A DNA stretch of 64,000 nt from Poseidonibacter antarcticus. GTDB lineage: Bacteria; Campylobacterota; Campylobacteria; Campylobacterales; Arcobacteraceae. The stretch covers positions 62,001 to 126,000 of the forward strand of contig NZ_RCWF01000003.1 of the NCBI RefSeq assembly GCF_003667345.1. The letters run 5' to 3'. Positions within the stretch are counted from its first letter, which is position 1, and every line of letters starts with the position of its first letter. The notes below the pieces were generated by a model that saw only the letters and a program-made list of their open reading frames with translations, was not told the DNA's origin and searched no databases. A program made the position numbers and the translations under genes. Shown one piece after another: positions 27,791-29,540 of this stretch.

Positions 27791-27809
27791 TTGTATATAA
27801 AATATACAG
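27791..27809. promoter_or_regulatory. Candidate nitrogen operator, amtB1
   Basis: TTGTATA-TAAAA-TATACAG is an almost perfect palindrome with a 5-base spacer. Its centre is 41 bases upstream of the TATAAT box at 27841, which would suit an activator. The same arms occur before amtB2 at nearly identical spacing. Confidence 0.55.
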
Positions 27810-27840
27810 AAGGTATATTTACTTATCATTCAATATCGTT

Positions 27841-27846
27841 TATAAT
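27841..27846 (+). promoter_or_regulatory. -10 box of amtB1
   Basis: TATAAT in GTTTATAATACTC lies 30 bases before the amtB1 ATG. No -35 box and no sigma-54 GG-N10-GC pattern is seen. Confidence 0.6.
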
Positions 27847-27875
27847 ACTCTTATAAAAATTGACAAAGGGGTCTT

Positions 27876-29090
27876 ATGGAAAATTTTGCTGATGTAAAAT
27901 ATATTTTAGATGGGTTTCTGTTCGTATTTGCAGGAATCTTAGTTATGTGGATGGCTGCAGGTTTTGCGATGCTAGAAGCTGGGTTAACAAGAACAAAGAA
28001 TAATGCGACTGTATTAACAAAGAATATGGCGTTATTTGCTATTTCTTGTATTATGTATTATTTCGTAGGTTACAACTTAATGTATGGAGAAGGTTCTTCA
28101 TTTATGGGTAGTATTTCAACAATTGATATGGTAAGTGCACCAGATGCTGCATATCCTGCTGCTGCTGATTTCTTCTTCCAAGTAATGTTTGTTGCAACTG
28201 CTGCTTCTGTTATTTCAGGAACTATTGCTGAAAGAATGAAATTATGGCCATTCTTATTATTTGTTGTTGTTTTATCAGGTGTTATTTATCCAATTCAAGG
28301 TCACTGGGTATGGGGTGGAACTGAACTTGGTGGTGTTATTGCTGGTTTCTCTGATTTTGCTGGGTCAACACTTGTTCACTCTGTTGGTGGATGGGCTGCA
28401 TTAGCAGGTGTTCTTATATTAGGCGCAAGAAAAGGTAAATATGGTAAAAATGGACAAGTTAGACCAATCCCTGGTTCAAATCTTACTTTAGCTACATTAG
28501 GTACATTTATTTTATGGCTTGGTTGGTTCGGATTTAATGGTGGTTCACAATTAGCTCTTGGTTCGAAAAGTGATATTGATGGTATAGCAATGGTTGTTGC
28601 TAATACTAATATGGCTGCTTGTGCTGGAGCTATTATGGCTGCTTTATTAACTCAACTATTATATAAAAAAGTTGATTTAACAATGGTTTTAAATGGTGCA
28701 TTAGCTGGTTTAGTTTCTTGTACTGCAGGTCCTGATTTAGGAATGATTGTTGCATTTATTGAAGGTATTGTTGGTGGTGCATTAGTTGTATTTGCTGTTC
28801 CATTATGGGATAAATTAAGAATTGATGATCCTGTTGGGGCTTTATCTGTTCATTTAGTTGCAGGTATTTGGGGAACTATCGCTGTTGGTATATTTAATCC
28901 TGAAGTTACTCTTTTAGCTCAACTTAAAGGTATTGTTGTTATTGGTGCATTTGTATTTATATCTTCATTCATAGTATGGAAAATATTAGATATGGTAGTT
29001 GGATTAAGAGTTGATGAAGAAACTGAGATCAATGGTCTTGATATTCATGAAACTGGTTTAGAAGCATATCCAGAATTTAAAAGATCATAG
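27876..29090 (+). CDS. amtB: Ammonium transporter AmtB (copy 1)
   Basis: A 404-residue Amt/Rh channel with about 11 hydrophobic helices. Key residues are in place: external-gate Phe pair F101 and F105 (FFQVMF), W146 (HWVWGG), D160 and H168 (DFAGSTLVH) of the pore, and the second pore His in DPVGALSVHLVAG. The C-terminal tail (VDEETEINGLDIHETGLEAYP) is the GlnK-docking type. It conducts ammonium into the cell. glnK follows after 16 bases. There is no long signal peptide. Confidence 0.97.
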   Translation: MENFADVKYILDGFLFVFAGILVMWMAAGFAMLEAGLTRTKNNATVLTKNMALFAISCIMYYFVGYNLMYGEGSSFMGSISTIDMVSAPDAAYPAAADFFFQVMFVATAASVISGTIAERMKLWPFLLFVVVLSGVIYPIQGHWVWGGTELGGVIAGFSDFAGSTLVHSVGGWAALAGVLILGARKGKYGKNGQVRPIPGSNLTLATLGTFILWLGWFGFNGGSQLALGSKSDIDGIAMVVANTNMAACAGAIMAALLTQLLYKKVDLTMVLNGALAGLVSCTAGPDLGMIVAFIEGIVGGALVVFAVPLWDKLRIDDPVGALSVHLVAGIWGTIAVGIFNPEVTLLAQLKGIVVIGAFVFISSFIVWKILDMVVGLRVDEETEINGLDIHETGLEAYPEFKRS

Positions 29091-29106
29091 GTAAAGGAAT
29101 TAAAAT

Positions 29107-29445
29107 ATGAAAAAAATAGAAGTTATTATTAAACCTTTTAAATTAGAAGATGTAAAAGACGCACTTGTTGAAGTTGGAATTACTGGTATGAGTGTATATG
29201 ATGTAAAAGGTTATGGTAGACAACAAGGTCACTCTGAATTATATAGAGGGGCTGAATATGTGGTAGATTTTTTACCAAAGATTAAAATTGATTTAGTAGT
29301 TCAAGAAGATATGGTTGAGACTGCAATAAGTGCAATTGTTAATTCTGCAAAAACAGGGAAAATTGGAGATGGTAAAATATTTGTATCATCTTTAGATGAA
29401 GTAGTTAGAATTAGAACTGAAGAAAGAGGTTCTGAAGCTATATAA
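29107..29445 (+). CDS. glnK: PII signalling protein GlnK (copy 1)
   Basis: A 112-residue PII protein, the sensor of 2-oxoglutarate and adenylate charge that plugs AmtB when nitrogen is plentiful. The T-loop [21 protein letters not shown] carries Y51, the usual uridylylation residue (motif spans residues about 35-55); the B-loop [11 protein letters not shown] and C-loop VRIRT are also present. It forms a pair with the preceding amtB. Confidence 0.97.
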
Positions 29446-29456
29446 TTTATACTTAT

Positions 29457-29487
29457 AATTTGAGAAAATATACTTTTTTCTCAAATT
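29457..29487 (+). terminator. Hairpin between glnK1 and amtB2
   Basis: AATTTGAGAAAA / TTTTCTCAAATT form a perfect 12-base stem with a 7-base loop 12 bases after the glnK1 stop. There is no T-run beyond the stem, but T residues make up part of its second arm. It overlaps the left edge of the amtB2 palindrome. Confidence 0.5.
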
Positions 29488-29507
29488 GTATATATATTAT
29501 ACAATTT
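29483..29507. promoter_or_regulatory. Candidate nitrogen operator, amtB2
   Basis: AAATTGTATA-TATAT-TATACAATTT is a perfect palindrome with 10-base arms and a 5-base spacer. Its centre (29495) is 40 bases upstream of a TATAAT box at 29535. It shares the TTGTATA-N5-TATACAA core with amtB1, although the surrounding sequences are otherwise different. Confidence 0.6.
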
Positions 29508-29534
29508 AACTTAATTAAATATTTTATATATCTA

Positions 29535-29540
29535 TATAAT
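29535..29540 (+). promoter_or_regulatory. -10 box of amtB2
   Basis: TATAAT in CTATATAATAT lies 30 bases before the amtB2 ATG, the same distance as in amtB1. Confidence 0.55.

Follow-up and report, generated by a model that had tools for sequence, protein, structure and literature searches.

Two genes for ammonium transporters in Poseidonibacter antarcticus are preceded by the same palindrome, which raises the question of what reads these sites and to which other genes the control extends. The genes, amtB1 (27876-29090, + strand) and amtB2 (29570-30757, + strand), lie in the window analyzed here, a 64-kb stretch (64,000 nucleotides) of the genome. An earlier note on this DNA had claimed palindromes at 27791-27809 (TTGTATATAAAATATACAG) and 29486-29504 (TTGTATATATATTATACAA), centred 41 and 40 bases upstream of TATAAT boxes. 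Both are present, and the boxes map to 27841-27846 and 29535-29540 on the + strand, 29 bases from the ATG in each case. It is nearly certain that a nitrogen regulon operates at these sites, and that it does so across many families of the Campylobacterota. Comparisons of sequences further suggest that this regulon is likely run by the product of a gene that we call geneB, a shortened NtrC-like protein of ~250 residues first met near amtB, which would activate sigma-70-type promoters. The finding supplies a site, a candidate protein, a list of targets and a set of natural knock-outs for nitrogen control in the Campylobacterota, and it gives a first handle on control of nitrogen uptake in this phylum.

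Our family set comprised 101 genomes of the Arcobacteraceae (family f1; this label, like that of the phylum, follows the names of geneB relatives), of which 80 contain geneB; here and below, genomes, loci, genera and families carry our own handles. The nearest species-named relatives of geneB are from Poseidonibacter isolates (88-89% identity). The first 30 glnA loci of the family all have a site 74-78 bases upstream of the ATG, with 0-3 mismatches. A strict test for TTGTATA-N5-TATACAA used a fixed interval of 66-92 bases upstream of the ATG in the 96 genomes with a readable glnA start (75 with and 21 without geneB), while five geneB-bearing genomes had no usable start and were left out (G064, G065, G068, G069, and G072). 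At ≤0, ≤1 and ≤2 mismatches, the motif was found in 11, 49 and 67, respectively, of the 75 promoters with geneB and in 0, 1 and 1 of the 21 without; the reversed control pattern gave 0, 0 and 1 of 75, and 0 of 21. The remaining 8 of the 75 promoters have an altered palindrome at about the same position; in three genomes of g2 and in G020 and G060 it resembles TTGGTTA-N5-TAACCAA, and in G009, G058 and G004 its arms are mixed or degenerate. Hybrid arms within a single site (G009, G058) suggest tolerance at positions 4 and 5. The motif as given in the earlier note holds for the usual Arcobacteraceae form, while across families the shared core is TG-nn-TA-N5-TA-nn-CA.

Using a loosened consensus (TGnnTA-N5-TAnnCA, palindromic at nn), chosen after the data were seen, we found a glnA site with ≤2 departures in 75/75 genomes with geneB versus 1/21 without, and with ≤1 departure in 71/75 versus 1/21, where 0.3% would be expected in simulated upstream regions. 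Because the genomes are related, significance by Fisher's test is overstated, and the comparison within genera is preferred. In five of the six genera of mixed geneB content, the glnA site follows geneB, with 3/3 genomes with geneB against 0/1 without in g2, 5/5 against 0/1 in g6, 16/16 against 0/12 in g10, 3/3 against 0/1 in g11 and 2/2 against 0/1 in g13; the exception is g4 (1/1 and 1/1). The amtB promoters behave similarly. Of 30 rows with geneB (from 32 matches, two of them without a locus, in 18 of 20 genomes queried; L491 duplicates L477), 23 have a site with 0 departures, 5 with one and 2 with two. An amtB2-like gene is retained in 13 of the 21 geneB-less family genomes, and the 170 bases upstream of these 13 genes contain no site within 1 departure, six showing 2 departures somewhere. 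Comparison of amtB and glnA upstreams across Arcobacter-group genomes, proposed earlier as a check, came out with sites conserved where geneB is present. The earlier note saw no sigma-54 pattern, and a sigma-54 (−24/−12) pattern was detected in none of the 96 family glnA upstreams (one of which, G084, has a misassigned start).

At the level of the phylum, a search of 298 genomes with a profile of 12 geneB proteins gave relatives in 101 of them (E ≤ 1e-10). We picked 30 geneB-bearing genomes from other families, of which 29 gave a glnA gene (none from G376). A site was present within 1 departure in 19/29 of these promoters and within 2 departures in 25/29, with 3.2% expected in simulated upstreams for the latter. 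These sites are mostly TTGnTTA-N5-TAAnCAA-like, and 23 of the 25 are followed by a −10-like hexamer at a distance of 39-41. Among the geneB-less f2 and f3 genomes listed, a subset of all those lacking geneB, 0/12 have a glnA site within 2 departures; the f3 genome G321 has geneB plus a perfect glnA site. In this comparison, the glnA start was read with less certainty for G260, G107 and G213. At amtB, 27 matches less four (two partial, two long) left 23 rows (22 distinct), of which 10 have perfect palindromes; in at least two cases, G227 and G351, the palindrome runs across the stop codon of the preceding P-II gene. Together, sites recur at glnA, amtB, urtA, ureAB, narK/nrtA-like, nirB-like, gltB, eutBC and nifA-like promoters (some names are readings of the sequence), which supports the suggestion in the earlier note that the phylum may have a nitrogen regulon not described before.

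The geneB proteins have 244-259 residues across the family. All 43 relatives aligned, taken from named loci, match the NCBIfam ntrC model (TIGR01818) at E ≤ 0.01 (best 8.1e-13), and the one fully tabulated protein scores far below the curated cut-off (22.6 bits versus 558.6); at the same E-value threshold 35 match Pfam Sigma54_activat and 36 match the Fis-type helix-turn-helix (HTH) family HTH_8. Invariant in the 43 rows are G32, G37 and L41 in the Walker A region as well as NR-TLRKK, and the HTH segment is almost invariant. GeneB has the Walker A region and the Fis-type HTH of NtrC and lacks its receiver, the AAA+ domain starting at the N-terminus. No GAFTGA string is found in the 12 rows of geneB alignment A1. 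After Walker A, geneB has ~64 residues versus ~114 in NtrC1; residues 2-47 and 112-180 align to NtrC1 residues 16-61 and 176-249, and the ~50 residues missing between them are those that we take, from the established structure of bacterial enhancer-binding proteins, to hold the GAFTGA loop. The predicted model (mean predicted local distance difference test score of 91.8) has structural matches in the NtrC family, including NTRC4 (Z 16.8, 180 aligned residues, root-mean-square deviation [rmsd] of 2.5) and NtrX (235 residues at a high rmsd of 8.6), and it also matches the VpsR structure 7v2b.

The case for geneB as the probable regulator reading the palindrome is strong but correlative. An alternative is that the regulon is real and its reader is another, unlinked regulator (e.g., of the CRP/FNR, TetR or MerR type) that was lost alongside geneB. 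Co-occurrence cannot separate proteins lost together, and the pattern would be identical for any other regulator whose losses fall in these lineages; moreover, our profiling of regulators over the genomes covered the geneB family only. The genomic context of geneB is relevant to both possibilities. In g2, g4, g5, g6, g8, g9, g10, g11, g14 and g20, geneB adjoins amtB or sits a few genes from it, and these clusters, in at least ten genera, often contain a site. By contrast, the geneB of P. antarcticus (G000:C3:32532-33281, − strand, outside the window) is ~56 kb from amtB1 and has no strong site directly upstream, geneB of G018 is likewise not near amtB, and in many f7 genomes geneB is found between a gene for an FKBP-type protein and a fabD-like gene. 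Further observations also weigh against our interpretation. G003 (91% complete, 280 contigs) keeps the glnA site and has no geneB hit; the f2 genome G260 has geneB, and no site was found at its glnA, the start of which is uncertain; and G283, G341 and G107 have geneB yet 3 departures at glnA. In several families, the left arm of the glnA site extends into the conserved end of the gene upstream, and therefore its conservation is partly coding. Several strong matches are intragenic or upstream of genes without a nitrogen role, and the residues of the recognition helix show no covariation with the change of arm from TTGTATA to TTGGTTA. Nevertheless, the proximity of geneB to amtB in at least ten genera, its suitable HTH and the coincidence of site and geneB within five of six mixed genera all argue for geneB itself, and we consider an unlinked reader unlikely.

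With respect to its neighbors, the FKBP/fabD context of geneB was read from the sequence at L325-L337 (f7) and in named metagenome-assembled genomes at L282-L284 and L286 (L284 being from a Sulfurimonas genome), such that geneB relatives show two gene contexts within one protein family. A GlnD-like gene is located downstream of geneB in g5, g8, g9, g10, g14 and P. antarcticus, with profile support for L050 and L186 and assignment by likeness for the others. Separately, we note that in L046 (7007-7025) and L048 (5516-5534) a site is located between geneB and a divergent gene, which in L046 encodes a HisKA/HATPase sensor kinase that also matches dCache weakly and might feed in a signal. A PAS-like label for a neighboring gene was dropped, as a Pfam match was obtained for 0 of 4 copies tested.

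How geneB would act is suggested by the position of the sites. Where several −10 hexamers fitted, we chose the one nearest 40, for glnA and amtB rows alike, which favours 40 in the following counts. From the centre of the glnA site to the first base of the −10-like hexamer, the distance is 40 in 55/75 and 41 in 14/75 promoters, one is at 50, and in five no −10-like hexamer was found. Of the amtB rows with geneB, 27/30 have a distance of 40 or 41. In the window, the distance is 41 at amtB1 and 40 at amtB2, ureAB, ureE and narK, the narK site being weak; counted on the sequence, it is 40 at glnA and 60 at urtA of the same genome, and amtB sites in other families are at 30 or ~40. The steps near 10 suggest that the sites lie on one face of the helix, and by inference the site is at ~−52 from the transcription start.

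In the mechanism that we propose, the palindrome would be the operator of a nitrogen-limitation regulon in many Campylobacterota families and would be read by a dimer of geneB (245-260 residues, with a shortened AAA+ domain lacking the sigma-54-contacting loop and a Fis-type HTH). Bound ~40 bases before the −10 box, geneB would most likely activate RNA polymerase carrying the housekeeping sigma factor by contact. Activation would occur when nitrogen is short and would include glnA, amtB-glnK, and urea, nitrate and other scavenging genes, with the P-II/GlnD system, encoded beside geneB in several genera, as the likely source of the signal. We infer the activator role from the spacing, which by itself is no proof of activation, and the signal input is likewise proposed. 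Alternatively, geneB might bind the palindrome as a repressor under nitrogen plenty, as TyrR-like relatives can repress and a second palindrome at ureE, described below, covers the core promoter. However, sites upstream of the −10 box, mostly at 40 or 41 and also at 30 and 60, are the habit of an activator in contact with polymerase and not of a blocker, and repression therefore appears improbable to us.

It is the locations of the sites, not their counts, that clearly depart from chance. At ≤2 mismatches, the P. antarcticus genome contains 130 matches versus 136 for the reversed control pattern; whole-genome counting at this threshold, which the earlier note had put forward as a check, is thus uninformative as a test of the motif, and its background result would have led us to reject the regulon wrongly. 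Similarly, the window has 25 matches at ≤3 mismatches versus 20.7 expected. With the loosened consensus, there are 2 perfect copies in the window, the two amtB sites, versus 0.1 expected and 11 copies within 1 departure versus 7.05 expected. Summed over the per-genome counts, the exact motif occurs 99 times versus 29 for the control in the 80 geneB-bearing family genomes and once versus twice in the 21 geneB-less ones. At ≤1 mismatch, motif and control counts are 14 and 11 in G005, 10 and 6 in G023, 11 and 10 in G046, and 24 and 9 in G014. Of the 11 places at ≤1 mismatch in P. antarcticus, six precede nitrogen genes or a ridA/dauR-like pair, three precede pheA-like, LysR and GNAT-like genes, and two are intragenic (several of these labels are sequence readings). 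Among the sites fetched from G014, five are intragenic (L421, L425, L428, L433, and L434) and some precede genes without a clear nitrogen role, and therefore not all matches are targets. That the palindromes arose by chance in an AT-rich genome or are remnants of an amtB duplication agrees with the counts at ≤2 mismatches and is already contradicted by their constant placement at unrelated promoters of many genomes, with 71/75 observed at glnA where simulated upstreams gave so few, and is hardly credible.

A broader account, which we regard as somewhat more probable than its opposite, holds that geneB would be an ancient global nitrogen regulator of the phylum's own, receiver-less and GAFTGA-less, that reads the core palindrome to drive glnA, amtB and the urea, nitrate, ethanolamine and nitrogen-fixation genes from promoters of the sigma-70 type, and that lineages that lost geneB shed the sites and often hold instead a small amtB leader RNA pairing with the ribosome site. 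With respect to this leader, 11 of 13 geneB-less amtB leaders carry GTCCAGCGCTGGR...GGAC (from 10 of the 12 g10 genomes without geneB and from one g2 genome; L458-L462, L464, L465, and L467-L470). The element is ~35 bases long (GTCC-AGCGCT-GG..-AAAA-GGAC) and just downstream of the −10 box, and its GTCC could base-pair with GGAC next to the ribosome site. Of the 101 family genomes, 11 contain a single copy of its 13-base core; all are geneB-less, and the copy is always upstream of amtB. A search of the leader loci against Rfam gave four weak matches (E of 3.3-4.7), none to such a leader. The consensus fold retains the outer GTCC/GGAC pairs alone, and because these are invariant, covariation lends the fold no support. 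The copy in G021 may have been acquired, as its amtB resembles a g10 form.

Several known systems resemble the one described here in part. Escherichia coli NtrC binds TGCAC-N7-GTGCA, a geometry that the TG-N13-CA arrangement here resembles; it has a receiver and a GAFTGA loop and acts at sigma-54 promoters, none of which were found for geneB or the sites here. TyrR is an NtrC-like protein working with sigma-70, and its box, TGTAAA-N6-TTTACA, is similar in style to our palindrome. TyrR and Vibrio VpsR differ from geneB in their targets and signals and in having N-terminal sensory domains, which geneB lacks. TnrA of Bacillus and NtcA of cyanobacteria are nitrogen regulators with near-equal palindromes and with protein folds other than that of geneB. 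The NtcA site is GTA-N8-TAC in the version given by the earlier note, which set it aside on this ground, and both amtB sites indeed have N9. The FNR site, with the consensus TTGAT-N4-ATCAA, was also set aside, as its half-site spacing differs.

In the excerpted text of PMC4475385, the TnrA box TGTNANAWWWTNTNACA also spans 17 bp with TGT/ACA ends and requires A at position 5, where both amtB sites have T; thus, they do not conform to the TnrA/GlnR box. The E. coli NtrC (NR-I) regulon is centred on glnA and amtB-glnK, like that proposed here, according to part of a Proteobacteria-wide regulon study, which omitted the epsilonproteobacteria as these have no orthologues of its target factors (PMC5343134). 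Excerpts of a preprint (PMC10274813) provide a documented precedent for the mode of action, in that NtrC of Rhodobacter capsulatus and Caulobacter lacks GAFTGA and is reported to act on nitrogen genes through sigma-70-dependent promoters, with binding of the Caulobacter protein to the glnBA and glnK promoters; they likewise describe VpsR (there spelled VspR) as a GAFTGA-less NtrC-like protein that works with sigma-70. Unlike geneB, which starts with the AAA+ domain and has ~50 fewer residues after Walker A, these two NtrC proteins have a phosphorylated receiver and a partner kinase, NtrB. The available portion of a paper on an epsilonproteobacterial metagenome mentions amtB and not NtrC (PMC4674564), and among the matches listed from the open-licence literature on nitrogen regulation in Arcobacter and the Campylobacterota, we found neither the regulon nor the protein described.

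Putative targets of geneB, defined by a site within 1 mismatch upstream of the gene, include genes with profile support, namely, gltB (L047 and L049), eutBC (L053, for eutB and eutC), a NifA-like GAF/sigma-54/HTH gene (L051 and L056), urtA (L058, L452, and L005 of P. antarcticus), a nirB-like gene (L426) and ridA/dauR-like pairs (L004 and L443, for the dauR-like gene). Others were named by reading the sequence, namely, nrtA-like and narK-like genes (L057, L427, and L449), amino-acid transporter-like genes (L439 and L456) and a third Amt-like gene (L435). Also by sequence reading, a HAD-phosphatase-like gene, which is not known to act in nitrogen metabolism, has a site 52-53 bases upstream in L424 and L447 (of G014 and G005).

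Within the window, the amtB1 palindrome has 0 departures and is found at the same position in relatives, and the amtB2 palindrome is also conserved in relatives. AmtB1 scores above the cut-offs of TIGR03644 and TIGR00836; AmtB2 is below both (E = 2e-122 and 2e-94, respectively). Each amtB gene has its own glnK-like P-II gene directly downstream on the + strand (29107-29445 and 30814-31152; NF008111 E = 1.5e-50, below the equivalog cut-off, and E = 6.6e-53, below cut-off). The window also encodes urease, nitrate reductase-like, NarK-like and purine-degradation proteins, partly named by profile and otherwise read from the sequence. A probable site for the urease operon, TTGTATAGTTTTTATAAAG (13299-13317, 2 mismatches), precedes a TATAAT box (13348-13353, +) and ureAB for a fused urease gamma/beta subunit (13400-14077, +; NF009671 above cut-off). 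Upstream of the ureE-like urease accessory gene (17460-17894, +; NF009754 E = 8e-14, below cut-off), TTGTTTGTTTTATAAACAA (17378-17396, 1 departure, before TACAAT) is the probable site, preferred over 17432-17450 partly on account of spacing. The latter, TTGTATATATATTATATAA, is the near-perfect second palindrome over the ureE core promoter; it is also present in the relatives L450 and L451 and could be a repressing site or an AT-rich coincidence. A possible weak site at 25581-25599 (3 mismatches to TTGTATA-N5-TATACAA) and a −10-like TACAAT (25545-25550, −) precede the narK-like nitrate/nitrite transporter gene (24235-25515, −; TIGR00886 E = 2.5e-69, below cut-off), and the narK-like gene of a relative (L449) has TTGTTTACTAAATATACAA 75 bases upstream.

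Two further open reading frames (ORFs) in this region were read from the sequence. One, at 22535-24157 between the nitrate reductase-like and narK-like genes, resembles a PP2C phosphatase fused to a protein kinase, and in both L057 and L426 a similar ORF adjoins nitrate or nitrite genes. The other, at 25771-27690 and divergent from amtB1, is ankyrin-repeat-like; its counterpart in the same position in L046 encodes a protein with Ank Pfam matches, and similar ORFs are present in L048 and L060.

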